IMG/VR virus record: IMGVR_UViG_3300030106_006091
Span: 3,319-67,318 of that record
From: a virus
Length of the DNA: 64,000 nucleotides
Reading direction: 5' to 3' (one strand)
In this document: positions 2,734-14,346 of the stretch, one piece after another
Numbering within the stretch: the stretch's first letter is position 1
Layout: every line of letters begins with the position of its first letter
Notes under the pieces: model-generated
Told to the model about the DNA's origin: nothing
The model's database searches: none
The model's input: only the letters and a program-made list of their open reading frames with translations
Made by a program: the position numbers and the translations under genes

Positions 2734-3670
2734 TGATTGTAAATGTTGATAGATCTGTTTCAAAGGGTATCATACCGAGCAAACCATCACGGTTCTTCTC
2801 GATGTGTACTGCCATGAGACCCACAGGGTCTTCACCACAATACTTGTCAGTGATGCCATACAGGTCATACGGACGCTGCAACATCATTACGACGTGTGCG
2901 TCCTGACCGATGGAGTCACCACCAAATAGGTCAGTCAAGAGGGGCTGGTATTGTTGTTTGGCACGATACTCCTGCTCGATGTTACGGTTCAGCTGTGACA
3001 ATAGAATGTTTACGCAGGTCATACGAGCCTGCATCCACATGCATGCCTTTGACAGAACGTTCAGTCGTTGTAGTTCTGTCTCAGCGTTGCCGAGTACCAA
3101 TCGAGAGTGGTCAATTAGATTGACGATTGTTGCAGTAGGATAACGGTGGAACACCTGTTCGTTGATGTTCTTCACCTTCTCCATGTCCTGCGGGATAGAA
3201 CAGAAGTAAATGGGATAATTCTTGTACTTCTGTACTGCTTGTACATACAAGTTGTACTTGTCCTGTGTCAGCTTAGCTTCAACTGACAACAGCTCGAACG
3301 TCTGAAGCTTTGTGTCTTTCGAGCCAGCACGCAGTATCTGCTGCTCGCCCGGCATCTCAAAGCTCCAATAGAGTACAACTATTTCTTTGTCTGTGTTCCT
3401 GTCCAGCAGATCAAAGATCAGTTGGTTTGAGAACGCAGATTTACCTACACCAGGACGCCCAGCAATGACATACATCTTGCCGGGCTGTAGCCCGCCCATC
3501 AAGTTCTTGTTCAGCCTCGACCAGTTGGTGGGATACACCAACCTGTTACCACGTATGCCCTTCTGGACATCCATGATAGATCGTTCAACTGACTTCGAAA
3601 TGTGACGGAGCTGGGGTATGTCCGTTATCTCATAGTTTGCGCGTAATGCGTCGTTGGGAGGTTTGCTCAT
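2699..3670 (-). CDS. DnaB-type replicative helicase
   Basis: A 323-residue RecA-fold helicase. Walker A is GRPGVGKSAFSN at residues 71-82, followed by an IVVLYWSFEM strand, a Walker B-like LIDHSRLVL near 187, and the LLSQLNRNIE segment typical of DnaB motif 3. Family members form a hexamer that unwinds DNA 5' to 3' ahead of the polymerase. It is shorter than bacterial DnaB (about 450-500), and only a short stretch precedes the motor, so the N-terminal primase-binding domain is reduced or absent. Its start overlaps the 182-residue gene upstream by 41 bases. Confidence 0.88.
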   Translation of the reverse strand: MSKPPNDALRANYEITDIPQLRHISKSVERSIMDVQKGIRGNRLVYPTNWSRLNKNLMGGLQPGKMYVIAGRPGVGKSAFSNQLIFDLLDRNTDKEIVVLYWSFEMPGEQQILRAGSKDTKLQTFELLSVEAKLTQDKYNLYVQAVQKYKNYPIYFCSIPQDMEKVKNINEQVFHRYPTATIVNLIDHSRLVLGNAETELQRLNVLSKACMWMQARMTCVNILLSQLNRNIEQEYRAKQQYQPLLTDLFGGDSIGQDAHVVMMLQRPYDLYGITDKYCGEDPVGLMAVHIEKNRDGLLGMIPFETDLSTFTINERTNTSQTGG

Positions 3671-4178
3671 CTTCTACATCTTCATACTTCTCCCATGTGT
3701 AGTTATTCACCCATGTCTGTAGTTGCTGCATGTAGCCAAGAGTGTTGGTCGACTTGCGTAGCTCTAGCTCATTGATCAAACATTTGACAATGAACTTGTG
3801 CTTCTGCGTGTCAGTCCCAATAATCTTCTCGTACTTCAGCTTAGGCTTGGCGTTTGCTCTAGCGTTGGCATCCTTAGCCCTCAACACCCGCATATGCCCA
3901 TTGTTGTAGACCTTGAGAGGAAAGTGGGAGAGAAGCTCGGACCACATCTGATCAAATGAGCCATGGATCATATCCATGAATCCTTGTCGTACTGTGTGGT
4001 CTCGTAGCTCCTCCCCCAACTTAAGAAGGCCCTTGGTTTGCAAGGCTTCGGTGTCTGGATTAAGAGATAACTCTTCTAGACAATCATAACTTGTGGCATG
4101 CAAGAGGTACAAATATAAGAAATCATCAGCTGTTATCCCAAATTCTTTGAGAGTTTCTGTGTTGATCTCTACAATCAT
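3630..4178 (-). CDS. Unknown protein upstream of DnaB; possible helicase partner
   Basis: A 182-residue, mostly helical protein without Walker motifs. An acidic-to-neutral first half is followed by a basic KDANARANAKPKLKYEK stretch and an aromatic patch (WVNNYTWEKYEDV). The gene overlaps the DnaB gene by 41 bases, so the two are probably translated together. By position it might load or regulate the helicase, but that rests only on neighbourhood. No family recognised. Confidence 0.7.
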   Translation of the reverse strand: MIVEINTETLKEFGITADDFLYLYLLHATSYDCLEELSLNPDTEALQTKGLLKLGEELRDHTVRQGFMDMIHGSFDQMWSELLSHFPLKVYNNGHMRVLRAKDANARANAKPKLKYEKIIGTDTQKHKFIVKCLINELELRKSTNTLGYMQQLQTWVNNYTWEKYEDVEDEQTSQRRITRKL

Positions 4179-6465: not shown

Positions 6466-6481
6466 GTTGTGAATCGATTTG

Positions 6482-6554
6482 TGCGCCCTGCTGGACTTGA
6501 ACCAGCGACCGATTGATTATGAGTCAATTGCTCTAACCACTGAGCTAAGGGCGC
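6482..6554 (-). tRNA. tRNA-Met (anticodon CAT)
   Basis: A 73-nt cloverleaf read on the minus strand. The acceptor pairs GCGCCCT with AGGGCGC, the D arm begins TAGCTCAGTGGTTAGAGC, the anticodon loop is CTCATAA, and the T arm contains GGTTCAAGTCC. CAT could also be an Ile tRNA needing lysidine. CCA is not encoded (the following bases read CAA). Confidence 0.93.
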
Positions 6555-6585: not shown

Positions 6586-6628
6586 ACCTGAATTGAATGA
6601 AACACGTGTGGTTATCGCCTCACACGCG

Positions 6629-6702
6629 TACCTCGAGCGGGACTCGAACCCACAACCTACAGCTTAGAAGGCTGTTGCACTATCCAGTTGTGCTATCGAG
6701 GC
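6629..6702 (-). tRNA. tRNA-Arg (anticodon TCT)
   Basis: A 74-nt cloverleaf on the minus strand. The acceptor pairs GCCTCGA with TCGAGGT (outermost pair G-T), the anticodon loop is CTTCTAA within the stem ACAGC/GCTGT, and the T arm contains GGTTCGAGTCC. It reads AGA, a codon used heavily in the plus-strand virion genes. CCA is not encoded. Confidence 0.93.
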
Positions 6703-6709
6703 AATAGAC

Positions 6710-6964
6710 TCACTCAGTGAGCAGCTTGTCAATACTCTCTTCGAGAGCACCAACAGCGCTCATGATGAACAAGCTGAGACTGTTGTCTTGCATTTCCACA
6801 GACAACACCTTGTCCAGCTCATTCTGTAGCCCACTGATGTGATGCTTCAGCTTGTGCTTGAAACGTGTGTTGCCTTGTGTCTCATCCAATAACTCTTGTA
6901 ATAACATAGACGTCACGAATAGCTTGACCTCAAGCTGTCGTGTTGTCTTCTTTACTTCTCCCAT
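6710..6964 (-). CDS. Small helical hypothetical protein
   Basis: An 84-residue protein predicted to be all helix (LKHHISGLQNELDKVLSVEM, then an amphipathic tail ending DKLLTE). It starts 13 bases inside the end of the polymerase gene, so it may be made from the same transcript. It could be a polymerase accessory, but nothing in the sequence shows this. Confidence 0.65.
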   Translation of the reverse strand: MGEVKKTTRQLEVKLFVTSMLLQELLDETQGNTRFKHKLKHHISGLQNELDKVLSVEMQDNSLSLFIMSAVGALEESIDKLLTE

Positions 6965-8805
6965 GTCTGTGAAATGTTTGTGTCTGCTTTCAACAGACCG
7001 TTAGGTATTATAATCTTTGCTGCCTTCTCCATGAGCTCAGTCATCTTGATTGACCATGCATCTGAGACCTCCTCCTTACAAATGGTGTCGATCTGATCAT
7101 GCACGGTCATCACAATCTTGACAGAGTCAGACCAGCTCTCTTCTATCTCACGGTGGATGTAGATGAGAGCAAGCTTAGTCATGTCAGCTGATGAGCCTTG
7201 GATAGGTGTGTTCTTGGATGCACGTTCGATACTACCAAACTCCTGCATCTTCGACCGGTCATCCCATATCTTGGGGAACCATGTGTCGAACCAACGACGG
7301 CGTTTGAATGGTGCAAAGGTAGTGATGTAACCGTTGCGTGTACCAAATGTACCAAGCTTTGTTAGAAAGTCTCGGATGTTTGGGAACTCTGTAAAATACT
7401 TCTCTATAAGATCCTCCGCTTCTGCTTTAGATATTTGTAGAGTGTCTGCCAGTTTGAACGGTCCCATGCCGTAGGCGAGTCCGAAATTAATTGCCTTAAT
7501 CTGTGTGCGTAGCTTCTTCTTAGCATCAGCGTCCGCACTTCTCCACTTATCTTCGAAGACAAGATCGGCGCATACTCCATGAAGATCCAGTCCTTTCTCA
7601 AGCGCTTCCAGCCAAACAGGGTCTTGTGAGCCATAAGCAATGACGTTTAGTTCCTGTGAAGAATAATCGCTGGACACGAAGACCCAGCCCTCGGGTGCGG
7701 TGAAACAATTTCTAAAGGTGTTATCGCTTGGAATTTGCTGCATGTTTGGTTTAGAGGATGAAACTCGTCCTGTATCCAATATCTGAGAGAAATTTGTATG
7801 CACCTTTCCGTCACAGTTGACGTAATTGAAGAACTTAGTACCGTACGCATTGGCGAGCTTTGTTCGCTCTTTGTATCTGATGTATTCATCTATCAATGGG
7901 TGTTTGTATCTGTGTTTGTTCAGTTTCTTGCCGTTCACATCCTCGAGGTTAGGCACGAGGTGCTGGAACAGCTCTAGTATTTGCAAAGGGGAACTCCACT
8001 TGATGTGAGTCTTGCGTACCTCATCCATCGCAGCAAACATATCTACCTGTACTGGTACGCGGTAGTGTTGTAGCAATGGATGTGCCAACACAATATCATC
8101 AAGCTTCAGCTCCTGTTCGTATGCCAGCTTGACATTTTGTTCTGCCATAGCTGTCCACTTGTCCTCATCAATGTTGAGACCTTCGTACTCAATCTCACTG
8201 AAGACTTTGACTACGGCATTCTCAAGACGTGTGACTTGTTGTAGTTCAAGCGAATGTATCTTAGCCAGTTGTTTCTCCCGTATGTCAAGCAGATAAACCA
8301 CATCGTTCGCCCCATACGTAATCTGATCGACGGTAAAAGGTTGACCTTTGAGTCCGATGAATTTGTTCCGCGTCTCTTTATCGAGAGTGTGACCGATATA
8401 TCTTTCGACACACCTGGAAAGAGAGTATCCATAGTCTTGCTTACCGCAATTGATAACTCTCTCCGCAAGAAACGTGTCGTATATTTCTTCCAACGATATT
8501 CCAGCCCATTTTTTGATGAACTTGTAATCGAACTTAGCGTTGTGAAGAACCTTGACGATACTGTTCGATTGTAAGACTTCTTTGAGCGGCGTGATGTCGA
8601 CGTCTCGTGTGTCGATGACGTACTGTCTGTCTCTGTCCCCGATTTGGAACATGATGAGTTTCTTGCACGTGAAGTCGAAGCCTTCCGTCTCGGTGTCCAC
8701 CCCCAGAACTGTCTTGCTTTCACAATAAGCCTGGCATTCTTGTATCGTCGCTGTCTGGATATCATTGAGAGGACTGTTTGTTCCGATGAATCTTACGCTC
8801 TGCAT
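6952..8805 (-). CDS. polA: DNA polymerase family A with 3'-5' exonuclease
   Basis: A 617-residue replicative polymerase of T7 type. The proofreading domain has Exo I DTETEG (37-42), Exo II HNAKFDYKF (88-96) and Exo III YGANDVVYLLD (164-174). The polymerase domain has motif A SSDYSSQELN with catalytic D380, motif B with R433, K437 and Y445 (RTQIKAINFGLAYG), and motif C VHD (568-570). There is no 5'-3' exonuclease domain, as in phage enzymes. Tyr at 445, in the O-helix position, is the residue that in T7 polymerase permits dideoxynucleotides. Its ATG is preceded at exactly four bases by a near-consensus promoter box. Confidence 0.96.
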   Translation of the reverse strand: MQSVRFIGTNSPLNDIQTATIQECQAYCESKTVLGVDTETEGFDFTCKKLIMFQIGDRDRQYVIDTRDVDITPLKEVLQSNSIVKVLHNAKFDYKFIKKWAGISLEEIYDTFLAERVINCGKQDYGYSLSRCVERYIGHTLDKETRNKFIGLKGQPFTVDQITYGANDVVYLLDIREKQLAKIHSLELQQVTRLENAVVKVFSEIEYEGLNIDEDKWTAMAEQNVKLAYEQELKLDDIVLAHPLLQHYRVPVQVDMFAAMDEVRKTHIKWSSPLQILELFQHLVPNLEDVNGKKLNKHRYKHPLIDEYIRYKERTKLANAYGTKFFNYVNCDGKVHTNFSQILDTGRVSSSKPNMQQIPSDNTFRNCFTAPEGWVFVSSDYSSQELNVIAYGSQDPVWLEALEKGLDLHGVCADLVFEDKWRSADADAKKKLRTQIKAINFGLAYGMGPFKLADTLQISKAEAEDLIEKYFTEFPNIRDFLTKLGTFGTRNGYITTFAPFKRRRWFDTWFPKIWDDRSKMQEFGSIERASKNTPIQGSSADMTKLALIYIHREIEESWSDSVKIVMTVHDQIDTICKEEVSDAWSIKMTELMEKAAKIIIPNGLLKADTNISQTWEK

Positions 8806-8968
8806 CTTGCATAAATATTAGTATTTGTTTTGCGTCACTGAGTGTGTACTGTTTGCCGAGGAAAAATACTGCATTTCGCTCGTTACGTTCTGATATCTCA
8901 ATCAGTCGTTTGAGGTCGTCGCTGCGTCCATCTTGAACCATGGCAGCTATCTGGCCCATTTTGCTCAT
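8762..8968 (-). CDS. Small helical hypothetical protein
   Basis: A 68-residue protein of charged helices (DDLKRLIEISERNERNAV, then LSDAKQILIFMQDAERKIH). It overlaps the polymerase gene start by 44 bases. No family recognised. Confidence 0.6.
   Translation of the reverse strand: MSKMGQIAAMVQDGRSDDLKRLIEISERNERNAVFFLGKQYTLSDAKQILIFMQDAERKIHRNKQSSQ
8810..8817 (-). promoter_or_regulatory. Possible promoter box before the polymerase gene
   Basis: On the minus strand TATTTATG matches the Bacteroidota box TAnnTTTG at seven of eight positions. It is followed by exactly four bases (CAAG) and the polymerase ATG, the spacing also seen at 11802, 25830 and 62545. It lies inside the upstream gene. No convincing -33 TTTG is visible. 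Confidence 0.4.
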
Positions 8969-9001: not shown

Positions 9002-9119
9002 TATCTCACCAAGGAATCGAACCTTGTACAGTAGGGGAGAGGTAGTTTCACTTACCTATCTACTGCAGCGTGTAGCTCAACGAAACGATACGAGCATACT
9101 ACACTTACCTGCGTGAGAT
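9002..9119 (-). ncRNA. Oversized tRNA-like RNA (element A)
   Basis: A perfect 7-bp acceptor (ATCTCAC at 9119-9113 with GTGAGAT at 9009-9003) joins directly to a perfect tRNA-type T arm (CAAGGTTCGATTCCTTG, 9010-9026). The total of 118 nt is far beyond a normal tRNA. The interior forms two long arms: one with GTGTAG/CTACAC (9099-9104 and 9070-9075) plus GCAG/CTGC, the other spanning 9029-9065 with CAGTAG/CTACTG and AGGTA/TACCT. The second loop contains GTGAAAC, which could present a GAA (Phe) anticodon after a bulged A. It may be an enlarged tRNA, a tRNA with an insert, or a non-decoding tRNA mimic. Confidence 0.5.
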
Positions 9120-9120
9120 A

Positions 9121-9148
9121 TAAAGGGGTGAGCTGTTACACTCACCCC
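9121..9148 (-). terminator. Intrinsic terminator after the 195-residue protein gene
   Basis: On the minus strand GGGGTGAG and CTCACCCC pair in a perfect 8-bp stem with an 8-nt loop, followed by TTTATATC. It lies just after the stop of the gene ending at 9156 and before element A. Confidence 0.8.
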
Positions 9149-9155
9149 CGTTGTG

Positions 9156-9743
9156 TTACGACAGGATTTCGCCTGTAGCAACGTCCACACTCTGAGAAGC
9201 GATGATGCCACCACCTGCGGTTGCAGGTGCATCAGCCTCCAAGAAGGTGTGCTTTGGTTCTCCGAACACCACGTTGGTGTTAGCGAAGATGTACATACCC
9301 TTGTGGGTAATGTAGTCACCATCCTTTCCACGACGCTTTGCAGCCGTTTCAAGGTTCTCCATCTGCCACTCGGTTGGCTCAACAGTCTCCGTGATTTGCA
9401 CACGAAGAGCCTTGCCAAGGGCTTCAGGGTTGATGACATTGAGGGACTTGACTTCACGTCCCATTTCGTTTGTGGTGTAACCACCAGTCAAATCCACACC
9501 CAACAACTCAGATGCATCGACAGGCTCCGCTGTCATCCATGCCCGACGTGCTCTCGTAGAAGAGAATCGGTCATCAGATGCATTGAATGCAGCCAACGCA
9601 TTGTTGTTAGACTGTGAAGCACCTTCCAGTACTTCTGCGAACTCGAGCTGGACTTTACCGTTGCTTACGCGACGTGATCCAACCAACAAACACTGACCGG
9701 ACTTGAGGGTGTCCAGTGAACCGCTGTTAAGAATGTTACTCAT
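9156..9743 (-). CDS. Conserved-looking hypothetical protein, probably abundant
   Basis: A 195-residue soluble protein with an early beta-rich region (GQCLLVGSRRVSNGKVQLEF), a segment ALAAFNASDDRFSSTRARRA, and a glycine-rich C-terminal end without an acidic tail. It stands alone with its own strong terminator and is flanked by tRNA-like elements. Its codons (AAC, GAG, ACC, CGT) look like those of well-expressed genes. It could be a single-stranded DNA-binding protein or another abundant early protein. I do not recognise its family. Confidence 0.75.
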   Translation of the reverse strand: MSNILNSGSLDTLKSGQCLLVGSRRVSNGKVQLEFAEVLEGASQSNNNALAAFNASDDRFSSTRARRAWMTAEPVDASELLGVDLTGGYTTNEMGREVKSLNVINPEALGKALRVQITETVEPTEWQMENLETAAKRRGKDGDYITHKGMYIFANTNVVFGEPKHTFLEADAPATAGGGIIASQSVDVATGEILS

Positions 9744-9805
9744 GGTTTTATGAGATTAACATGATTATAATGTTGGGACTGTTGATGGTCGTCCCGATAC
9801 CATTG

Positions 9806-9871
9806 TGAACAGGAGAGGATTCGAACCTCCTAACTGATGCGATTCTTGCCAACCAATGGCACTACCTGTTC
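9806..9871 (-). ncRNA. Mini tRNA-like RNA lacking an anticodon arm (element B)
   Basis: A 66-nt element with a perfect 7-bp acceptor (GAACAGG/CCTGTTC) and A discriminator, a D arm (TGCC-ATTGGTT-GGCA, 9847-9861) and a T arm (GGAGG-TTCGAAT-CCTCT, 9814-9830). Only 16 nt (9831-9846) lie between D and T arms and they form no 5-bp anticodon stem. It is either a tRNA with an internal deletion or a tRNA-like RNA that cannot decode. Confidence 0.55.
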
Positions 9872-9879
9872 AATAAAAC

Positions 9880-9983
9880 GATAACACAGCCTCACCGGTT
9901 TATCTATTGCCATATATGGTACTCCGGGTGCAGTCTAACACGTAGGCCATACTGCGGTATCTATTCGCCCTGGCTGTGTTATC
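9880..9983 (-). ncRNA. Structured RNA closed by a perfect 12-bp stem (element C)
   Basis: GATAACACAGCC (9880-9891) is the exact reverse complement of 9972-9983, enclosing 80 nt. The inside holds GCAGT/ACTGC pairing and the self-complementary CCATATATGG. Unlike its neighbours it has no recognisable T arm. The strand is assumed from the neighbouring elements; the stem is symmetrical. Confidence 0.4.
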
Positions 9984-10031
9984 TAACTGATTTATATCGA
10001 CTCCAGCTGAAGCCGCTGCCATGGCAGAGTA

Positions 10032-10142
10032 GTAGTGCAGAAGGAATCGAACCTTCGGGATAATGTCTATAAGATGTAGCTATCTCATCTTCGGAGCTCT
10101 TATTGGCTCTACAACGACAACCCCCCACGCCAGTGTGCACTA
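10032..10142 (-). ncRNA. Oversized tRNA-like RNA (element D)
   Basis: A perfect 7-bp acceptor (TAGTGCA at 10142-10136 with TGCACTA at 10039-10033) abuts a perfect T arm (GAAGG-TTCGATT-CCTTC, 10040-10056). The length is 111 nt. Inside are hairpins GAGC-CAATAAGA-GCTC and AAGATG-AGATAGCTA-CATCTT, with 26 nt between the acceptor and the first hairpin. Read as a type II tRNA, the first hairpin would be the anticodon arm (possible AAG, Leu) and the second a long variable arm, but the D arm would then be irregular. Confidence 0.5.
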
Positions 10143-11813: not shown

Positions 11814-11951
11814 ATGGCAAAGAAGCAAACACCATTCGACATGTACATCAAAAAAAATGTATCAAGACCCGGAGTCCATGGTAAAACTAAATCGTCTAAG
11901 CACAAGTCTTCTAAGCTTTACAAGAAGGCATATCGCGGCCAAGGCCGTTAG
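11814..11951 (+). CDS. 45-residue highly basic protein
   Basis: Starting four bases after a perfect TAnnTTTG box, this short frame encodes MAKKQTPFDMYIKKN, then SRPGVHGKTKSSKHKSSK, ending YKKAYRGQGR. About a third of the residues are Lys or Arg. I recall similar short proteins ending RGQGR in other Bacteroidota phages, but cannot verify it. It overlaps the next gene's start in another frame. A nucleic-acid-binding role is likely from charge alone. Confidence 0.7.
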   Translation: MAKKQTPFDMYIKKNVSRPGVHGKTKSSKHKSSKLYKKAYRGQGR

Positions 11952-14346
11952 TCTAATAGCACTACTACTAGTATCGCTAACTGCTCTATCCCAGAGCTGG
12001 ATAAACCTTGAACTGCAAGCAGATCAGTATGGGGGTGAAACAACTTGGGAGATAGTACAGGGCGATAGTGTATTTGCATCAGGGGGACCTTACGGGTCTT
12101 TCGAGTACGTACAACAACTCATACCCCTACCACCAGGTGAGTACAACCTAGTTGTCAATGATGCATTTGGGGATGGCATCTGTTGTGACTTCGGGGAGGG
12201 CTGGTTTGGTATAGAGAACACATGTAGCGTATCACAATCAGTGTACGACTTTGCAACTGCGCAAGTAGTAGTGTATTTTGATTTGCTACCATGCCCCCCA
12301 CCTATAGCTGGATGCAGTGATGAGACAGCAAACAACTACAACCCAGATGCATACTTCGATGATACCTGCATCTACGATGTAACATTTAGACTAGACCTCA
12401 ACGGACCACACCCACCACAGATAGTTACCCCAGAAGTAAACTCTAACGTAAACGGGTACTGCGGGTCGTGTTGGGCCATGAGTGATGACGATCAAGATGG
12501 GGTGTGGGAGATAACAGCCCCCATGCCAGAAGGGGAACATCTTTGGAAGTTCTCTGCAGACAATTGGGAGATACAGGAATTGCCAGTAGGCGTTTCTGAG
12601 TCTCCCTGTTTTTTGTTCGATGAGTTCGGGTATGTCAACAGAACCATAAACGTACAGGGTAACATGACACTCCCACCATTGTGTTGGGAAAGCTGTTTAC
12701 CATGCGGGGCCGTACCAGGCTGCACAAATCCAAACGCCAGCAACTGGAGTCCATGGGCAAACTTTGACAACGGGTCATGCACAGGCCTTGGTGCTGACTG
12801 TCAACCGTGGGAGACAGAGATTACCACTACACTTATCGCAGACAACTACCCCGAAGAAACAAACCTGAACGTATACAATATTACATCTGACGAAGAACTG
12901 CTAGATATATCTGTTGGGGACATACCACAGCTGGTCATTGGTGTGCCACTTGTGTTCTCTACATGTGCTACAGTTGGGGATGTTGTTGAGGTAGAGATAG
13001 CTGACAGCTACGGTGACGGACTTGGGGCTTCTCAGTGGGGCGGACAGGACGGAGATCTGTTTGTTGTGGCATGCGGAGATACTCTATGGGACCTGCCTGA
13101 AGCTGACTTTGGGTACAGCACTTTCTCAGAGTTTACCACACCTACATGTGTCACTGTCGAAGACGTAGTAGGATGTGGAGACCCAGACTACCTAGAGTAC
13201 AACCCAGATGCGACCATACAACTAGATGTGCTGTGTGAAACTCTTGCAGTATACGGTTGCACAGATACACTGTACTTCAACTACGACTCTCTTGCCAATG
13301 CAGAAGACGCAATAGATTCCTGCTTCTATACGCTCACTATTACAGACGGTATCGGAGATGGGTGGTTTGGGAGCTGGCTTGGTGTCTACCAGAACGGGTG
13401 GGCATCACCACAATACAAGATGGGGCCAAACGATGGGACAGAAGAAGTGTTCGATATATACCTGTCAGCTGAGGAGGAGATAGAGATGTTCTTCTTCACA
13501 ACCCCGCAGTCACAGAACCAAGTCAACCAGTGCGGGTTCACGCTTGTTGGCCCGACTGGGGACACACTGATAGATATCTCACAGTGGAGCATTACCCCGT
13601 TCCCCAACACATACAGTGTAACTCCATACTGCGGCAATACATGTATACCATTTGCATACGGATGCACTGATGAGACTGCACAGAACTATGATGCATACGC
13701 AAACACAGAGAATGGTAGCTGCTACTACAACGCTGGGTGCACACAAGCAGGCTATCTAGAATATTACACCCAAGGGTACGAAGCTGATTACGACGACGGA
13801 TCATGTGAGACATTGGCTGTCTTTGGGTGCACAGATGAAGAAGCACTCAACTACGAGCCAGAGGCGAACGTTGACAACAACAGTTGTATAGCCGTAGTCG
13901 AGGGCTGCATGGACCCAGACGCATATAACTACAACGAAGACGCCAATACTTCTACGCAGTGTTTGTATGATGCAGGATGCATTACAGGACCAGGACAACC
14001 CTACTGGGCAAACGACAACTGCTACACGTGGGTTATAGAAGTTGACCCATACTGCTGTGAGGTGGGGTGGGATGCACCATGTATGGAGCTATATCAATAC
14101 TGCGGCAATCAAACATCTAGCGTAGACGTAGCCGTTCAGTCTTTGCTGCACTTCTTCCCTAATCCTACAGACGGGGAGATACGTGTGCAAGCACCCATAG
14201 GCACAGTCATTACAATTGTGGATGCTTCAGGCAGAAAGATAATAGAGACAGAAGACACTAGAATACATCTCCCATCTGCGGGTGTGTATGTAATCATGGC
14301 CAACTACAAAGGCCGAATCAAAAAAGAAACAGTAGTAAGGCAATGA
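11878..14346 (+). CDS. T9SS-exported repeat protein with C-terminal sorting domain
   Basis: A protein of about 822 residues. The start is uncertain (11857 or 11878, both inside the preceding short gene). A signal peptide (VSLIALLLVSLTALSQS) is followed by a beta-sandwich-type domain with a GDGICCDFGEGW loop, then eight or so copies of a Cys-bounded repeat of the form GCTD-x2-A-x-NY ... DNGSC, interrupted by domains with YGDGLGASQWGG and IGDGWFGSW loops that look calcium-binding. The last 75 residues (FFPNPTDGEIRV, VDASGRKII, LPSAGVYVI, KETVVRQ) are a type A T9SS sorting domain. In hosts this domain directs crossing of the outer membrane and anchoring to or release from the cell surface. So the phage places this protein outside the infected cell. 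The role is unknown; masking of receptors and adhesion are candidates. Confidence 0.82.
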   Translation: MVKLNRLSTSLLSFTRRHIAAKAVSLIALLLVSLTALSQSWINLELQADQYGGETTWEIVQGDSVFASGGPYGSFEYVQQLIPLPPGEYNLVVNDAFGDGICCDFGEGWFGIENTCSVSQSVYDFATAQVVVYFDLLPCPPPIAGCSDETANNYNPDAYFDDTCIYDVTFRLDLNGPHPPQIVTPEVNSNVNGYCGSCWAMSDDDQDGVWEITAPMPEGEHLWKFSADNWEIQELPVGVSESPCFLFDEFGYVNRTINVQGNMTLPPLCWESCLPCGAVPGCTNPNASNWSPWANFDNGSCTGLGADCQPWETEITTTLIADNYPEETNLNVYNITSDEELLDISVGDIPQLVIGVPLVFSTCATVGDVVEVEIADSYGDGLGASQWGGQDGDLFVVACGDTLWDLPEADFGYSTFSEFTTPTCVTVEDVVGCGDPDYLEYNPDATIQLDVLCETLAVYGCTDTLYFNYDSLANAEDAIDSCFYTLTITDGIGDGWFGSWLGVYQNGWASPQYKMGPNDGTEEVFDIYLSAEEEIEMFFFTTPQSQNQVNQCGFTLVGPTGDTLIDISQWSITPFPNTYSVTPYCGNTCIPFAYGCTDETAQNYDAYANTENGSCYYNAGCTQAGYLEYYTQGYEADYDDGSCETLAVFGCTDEEALNYEPEANVDNNSCIAVVEGCMDPDAYNYNEDANTSTQCLYDAGCITGPGQPYWANDNCYTWVIEVDPYCCEVGWDAPCMELYQYCGNQTSSVDVAVQSLLHFFPNPTDGEIRVQAPIGTVITIVDASGRKIIETEDTRIHLPSAGVYVIMANYKGRIKKETVVRQ
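12307..13962 (+). repeat. GCTD...DGSC Cys-bounded protein repeats
   Basis: Within the T9SS protein, copies of a repeat of about 22 residues start near 12307, 12717, 13170, 13252, 13657, 13732, 13824 and 13899. Each opens with GC(T/S/G)D or a close variant, has NY(N/D/E) in the middle and closes with a Cys. Three to four copies of the same repeat occur in the 2316-residue virion protein. Confidence 0.75.

Follow-up and report, generated by a model that had tools for sequence, protein, structure and literature searches.

The locus described here raises the question of why RNAs that begin and end like tRNAs, with abnormal centres, should be gathered around a single phage gene. The earlier note on this DNA had offered four answers: mimics that bind tRNA-handling enzymes, decoys for tRNA-cleaving nucleases, tRNAs with short introns, and decaying tRNAs. 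The window, that is, the whole 64,000-nt stretch that was analysed, belongs to a virus record of 73,838 bases, and we infer that its phage, a marine one, is crAss-like because the ring protein matches the Pfam family CrAss_Ring_1 (E-value 4e-56) and the terminase, portal and head protein each have a PHROGs match. As the note had it, the three elements, named A, B and D (Table 1), surround one gene and share one strand. This gene encodes a 195-aa protein and lies in the replication region just upstream of a 68-aa gene and polA; the elements and the flanking genes are all on the minus strand. The order at the locus is a gene, a tRNA-like element (TLE), the pseudoknot leader with the 195-aa gene, another TLE, and polA.

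Table 1. Coordinates of the features discussed, as positions in the window.
Feature	Position	Strand	Basis
tRNA-Met (cat), ordinary, for comparison	6481..6554	-	ARAGORN, Rfam
tRNA-Arg (tct), ordinary, for comparison	6628..6702	-	ARAGORN, Rfam
DNA polymerase family A (polA)	6952..8805	-	
68-aa gene, after A, overlaps polA	8762..8968	-	
Element A, tRNA-like; separates the 195-aa gene from the polA operon	9003..9119	-	Descriptor; covariation in 12 positional orthologues
37-nt hairpin inside A, absent from L003 and L010; resembles hairpins inside D of L019	9071..9107	-	
Terminator-like hairpin with short T run, ending just before A	9124..9149	-	
195-aa gene (P195), no family assigned	9156..9743	-	Family searches; beta-rich structure model
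5' leader of the 195-aa gene: H-type pseudoknot with stems ATGGT/ACCAT and GGGAC/GTCCC	9775..9803	-	Leaders compared
Element B, tRNA-like without anticodon arm; ends ~3 nt before the pseudoknot	9807..9871	-	Descriptor, folding
Element C, between D and B; RNA with a 12-bp closing helix (GATAACACAGCC/GGCTGTGTTATC)	9880..9983	-	Sequence; relatives
Element D: 7-bp acceptor, D region with GG, central hairpin that does not decode, T arm	10033..10142	-	Descriptor; 7 relatives; conservation limits

All three elements have a perfect 7-bp acceptor that directly adjoins a T arm with the loop TTCGATT or TTCGAAT, which bears out the note for A and D and extends it to B. Element A comprises 117 nt plus the discriminator (acceptor ATCTCAC/GTGAGAT, T arm CAAGG-TTCGATT-CCTTG), D 110 nt plus one (TAGTGCA/TGCACTA, GAAGG-TTCGATT-CCTTC), and B 65 nt plus one (GAACAGG/CCTGTTC, with a D-like hairpin, a T arm and, as claimed, no anticodon arm). 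A strict descriptor, which required a GTTCGA loop, four or more Watson-Crick pairs in the T stem, a 7-bp acceptor with six or more, and a span of 40-130 nt, matched A, B, D and one ordinary tRNA in the window. Since only 0.013 matches on average (maximum 1) were expected per shuffled window (150 dinucleotide shuffles), A, B and D are real rather than chance matches; their RNA folding z-scores are -2.7, -2.0 and -1.8, respectively. ARAGORN and Rfam missed all three in the window and listed only the tRNA-Met and tRNA-Arg near 6.5 kb. ARAGORN found no tmRNA there either; the elements, at 39-117 nt, fall short of the tRNA-like domain plus tag frame of a tmRNA. Compared with a decoding tRNA, the 7-bp acceptor, 5-bp T stem and TTCRANN loop are present and the 5-bp anticodon stem with its 7-nt loop is not: the interior is 86 nt in A and 79 nt in D, and B has nothing of this arm.

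These over-long interiors, together with the doubtful anticodons that ARAGORN gives to a few relatives, could suggest ordinary tRNAs split by short introns, an explanation that we consider very improbable. One point of the note needs correcting: the length of A is a lineage-specific feature, since a 37-nt hairpin that makes up part of its extra length is absent from the closest relatives, L003 and L010. This recent insert sits in the D-arm region, not in an anticodon loop, and its removal does not yield an ordinary tRNA, given that A of L003, at 80 nt, still has a non-standard centre. Moreover, B, the related element E, the element of L032 and the armless forms described below are shorter than a tRNA, and the Rfam scan of the window returned no intron family.

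Relatives were taken as IMG/VR loci carrying the polymerase or the 195-aa gene. In about 12 of 68 clusters, a TLE directly follows the stop codon of the 195-aa gene; TLEs also occur immediately ahead of its leader. The element is optional, because most clusters have none beside this gene and four GOLLD loci (below) have none at their flanks. At the position of A, the relatives have elements of 48-117 nt with varied acceptors (ATCTCAC, ATCTCAG, AACCGTG, CACCATG, AACCACG, AATCAAG, AACCAAG, AATCAGG and AGCAGTT), each matched by its 3' strand. Among 12 such positional orthologues, 97.9% of cells are paired (38-51% in slid controls), 10 of the 12 acceptor and T-stem pairs show changes on both sides, and these amount to 43 cells vs. 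10.7 after shuffling and 6-9 in slid controls, so the covariation that the note had asked for is present. A second covariation set gave 7 pairs vs. 0-2 in slid controls. As elements were chosen using pairing, a permutation test provides the cleaner control for the acceptor: an acceptor mate was found for 25 of 45 T arms of non-standard length, compared with 2.7 when 3' strands were permuted (maximum 9, 300 permutations). In addition, the group L109-L129 keeps a textbook D arm, TAGCTCAACTGGTAGAGC, which fixes the place of the acceptor without using complementarity, and its acceptor and anticodon-arm helices covary; some relatives in the L109-L127 group pass the Rfam tRNA score. Most members of the A4 family have a 6-bp stem with a loop of at least 12 nt instead of the 5-bp/7-nt anticodon arm. 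Element D taken alone shows little covariation, since it hardly varies. Collectively, these comparisons indicate that A, B and D belong to a TLE family conserved in many relatives.

The textbook D arm retained in L109, L111, L114 and L124 is what might be expected of tRNAs decaying from a former tRNA array, which the note had also considered. This explanation is nonetheless improbable, if somewhat less so than introns, and is contradicted by compensatory changes that keep both stems perfect, by the replacement of the centre with new paired helices, and by recurrence at one gene in many lineages.

What stays constant across the TLEs is the acceptor, T stem, T loop, a GG, and a C at position 74, the last in 21 of 24 elements, as in the phage's ordinary tRNAs. 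The GG follows the acceptor by 2-10 nt in 24 of 24 elements (11.0 expected), and in every element it appears suited to an elbow contact with the T loop. The pairing and its covariation give the 12 bp plus T loop of RNase P and RNase Z substrates, and acceptor and T stem would stack coaxially. The remainder varies: interiors range from 10 nt (L137, L142) to the 86 nt of A in the window, and the anticodon arm may be longer, shorter or missing, the armless forms having interiors of 10-11 nt and total lengths of 39-43 nt. Upstream of the 195-aa gene, the gap has a mosaic make-up: E, C, D and B, along with larger structured segments, appear in varying orders. Element D occurs in seven phages with different neighbours, its conservation beginning at the acceptor and stopping one C past it, and its central sequence is strongly conserved (7 relatives). 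For the E elements, a 185-nt pairing with a strand inside the upstream gene was rejected for a better 56-nt pairing with AGCGCAG or AACGTAG.

Based on these data, we favor, at a probability of roughly 55%, the hypothesis that TLEs are cleavage sites for host RNase P and RNase Z, which would so give neighbouring mRNAs and structured RNAs their ends. That is, a TLE would be transcribed inside a longer RNA and fold as the top half of a tRNA; host RNase P would make the cut at its 5' end, and the 3' cut would be left to RNase Z or a comparable processing activity. The 3' end of the upstream RNA would thereby be defined, as would the 5' end of the mRNA downstream (the pseudoknot plus 195-aa gene, or the 68-aa gene plus polA). 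If only the top half is needed for cutting, the centre would be free to grow, shrink or vanish. The parts of the model that sequence comparison shows are the covarying acceptor on a covarying T arm, the elbow GG, the non-decoding or absent anticodon arm, the co-directional placement between genes or large structured RNAs, and modules bounded by the acceptor ends. The acceptor-T stack is the feature that RNase P measures, the D loop seemingly not being needed (PMC4919913), and the enzyme cuts phage C4 RNA and polycistronic mRNAs (PMC11143913); what the TLEs conserve is thus the part gauged by RNase P and RNase Z (PMC4919913, PMC11143913).

The armless elements precede the 195-aa gene or its remote relatives; the latter are found, with profile E-values of 1e-4 to 1e-7, in L189, L193, L194, L195, L197 and L199. 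An armless TLE stands at the 3' end of the large GOLLD RNA (RF02032, present in relatives L137, L189 and L194) in three or four contigs, and in two contigs there is one on both sides. GOLLD ends about 11 nt before the element in the L137/L188 and L189 contigs, and 88 nt before it in L194; in L195, GOLLD-matching sequence, with no Rfam call, lies at the contig edge directly before it. The second element precedes GOLLD in the L137 and L194/L201 contigs. Apparently non-coding stretches that end at an armless TLE in L172/L196, L190, L192, L193, L197, L198 and L199 are possibly unannotated large RNAs; stretches upstream of armless TLEs reach about 440 nt (L172 1893-2214 among them). A stop codon of the upstream reading frame falls inside the armless acceptor strand at L142 2901, L202, L203 and L137 1947. 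Several observations count against the processing hypothesis: L107 and the window both have a terminator-like hairpin ahead of the TLE; the centre of D is more strongly conserved than a bare cutting signal needs; TLEs are absent at most clusters and do not flank GOLLD at four other loci (L181, L183, L184 and L185); the predicted minimum-energy fold of the L137b element is a longer hairpin, not tRNA-like; and, in L142, L202 and L203, a 5' cut would remove the stop codon. The idea that TLEs replace terminators was set aside as only a tendency, given that the stretches set against each other are of unequal length and that L107 contains a TLE as well as a terminator-like hairpin.

The 195-aa leader contains further RNA structure. 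The pseudoknot was counted by descriptor, since MAFFT left pseudoknots unaligned, and is found in 28 of 50 leaders (window, L002-L022, L099, L107, L137, L142, L152, L155, L171, L172 and L177 among the loci) vs. 4.1 in shuffled sequence; the sequences of both stems change from lineage to lineage with the pairing kept, and it stands 51-73 nt upstream of the gene start. By analogy with T4 gene 32, it is possibly an autoregulatory site of the 195-aa gene. It shares the RNA-rich gap with B, D and element C; the note's entry mentions neither the pseudoknot nor C. The closing helix of C shows compensatory change in L003 (GATAACATAGC/GCTATGTTATC); C and C-like RNAs in the gaps of the window, L003 and L019 have closing helices of 11-12 bp with compensatory changes between phages. 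In L109, L119, L124, L127, L129 and L174 a common motif replaces the pseudoknot, GAAGGTCACAAGCCCTTTAATGCAGAGTGG in most and a diverged form in L174, without an Rfam match in the loci scanned. About 230 nt after D, L004 and L019 have a large, conserved, structured-looking non-coding stretch (CAGTCGTCCCC...GACAGTAAACTGC), and L114 has a Group I intron match (Rfam) at 3483-3698, downstream of the 195-aa gene. As for the protein itself, Foldseek gave no significant match to its structure model (pLDDT 76), and comparison with structures including the plasmid protein PrgE gave VIA Z of at most 3.0, with no clear PDB match; that it binds single-stranded DNA is only a guess. A scan of genome contigs with its alignment profile returned zero relatives, and a scan with a 125-aa protein zero matches. 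No annotated or cultured relative is at hand, because tblastn of the 195-aa protein against annotated phages was empty.

In seven loci (window, L099, L015, L137, L142, L152 and L155), 2-6 nt separate the end of a TLE from the leader pseudoknot that follows, and GOLLD binds ribosomes in pull-downs (PMC12286853). Both facts are consistent with TLEs being handles that would recruit the attached RNA (the 195-aa leader, GOLLD or other large RNAs) to the ribosome, the CCA enzyme or other elbow binders, or that would be sensed by the 195-aa protein for autoregulation. We regard this as unlikely, given that TLEs also stand after the 195-aa gene and before polA, with no pseudoknot. Slightly less unlikely, albeit still doubtful, is that the TLEs are stable, trans-acting small RNAs that would occupy or inhibit a tRNA-handling enzyme or toxin at the acceptor end or elbow, in counter-defence or host takeover. 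The cores of D and E are conserved beyond the top half, several different TLEs are found next to one another, and phages exchange modules, as would suit such RNAs; the exact placement between genes and around GOLLD is left unexplained. Members without an anticodon arm make anticodon nucleases unlikely targets, and the decoys proposed by the note fit poorly in that sense, whereas decoys of an acceptor- or elbow-acting enzyme may still apply. Of the note's options, mimicry that binds tRNA-handling enzymes is the one that acceptor and T-arm covariation, the kept GG and an anticodon arm free to change or vanish support. The conserved core of D may point to an added role.

In mitochondrial tRNA punctuation, tRNAs excised between genes give the flanking RNAs their ends. 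The likeness lies in tRNA folds between genes on one strand; the phage TLEs differ in being non-decoding and in flanking only some genes, and cutting at them is predicted. The armless mitochondrial tRNAs of nematodes are of similar size (~40-45 nt) but decode, without D and T arms, whereas armless TLEs keep the T arm and have no anticodon arm. Phage T4 RNAs C and D, small stable non-tRNA RNAs in a tRNA cluster, may be comparable to TLEs. GOLLD is linked to phage tRNA islands, and our relatives likewise have this large RNA beside tRNA-like genes; the flanking elements here are, however, armless and non-decoding, and the window has no GOLLD match above the Rfam gathering score. Non-tRNA substrates of bacterial RNase P (tmRNA, 4.5S RNA, phage P1/P7 C4 antisense RNA and polycistronic mRNAs; PMC11143913, PMC4919913) use top-half tRNA mimicry for RNA processing, as TLEs are predicted to, and include a phage RNA precedent; TLEs differ in being dispersed and modular, with a full acceptor, T arm and GG, repeated at one locus. 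Neither Rfam nor the part of the literature covered gave a description of GOLLD with tRNA-like elements or of tRNA punctuation in phages, and the TLE family, tRNA-like RNAs that probably serve as processing signals, is probably undescribed. A broader proposal, to which we would give a little less than even odds, is that TLEs are an undescribed, widespread, non-decoding class (down to ~40 nt) in crAss-like and related phages that borrows host tRNA-processing enzymes, both to excise GOLLD and other giant RNAs and to set where replication-gene mRNAs begin and end. If true, phages would use tRNA punctuation through elements that never decode, and this would hint at the way in which giant phage RNAs, GOLLD included, acquire their ends. 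The TLEs also form a natural series of stepwise reduction to the acceptor-T half, which bears on what RNase P and RNase Z need in the cell, and, with most of them missed by tRNA finders, phage RNA maps are incomplete. Finally, apart from this locus, the window encodes on the plus strand (11857-14346) an 829-aa protein with no Pfam match and with repeated GCTDxxAxNYxPxA motifs, whose C-terminal FPNPTxG tail resembles a type IX secretion sorting signal, which is odd for a phage.
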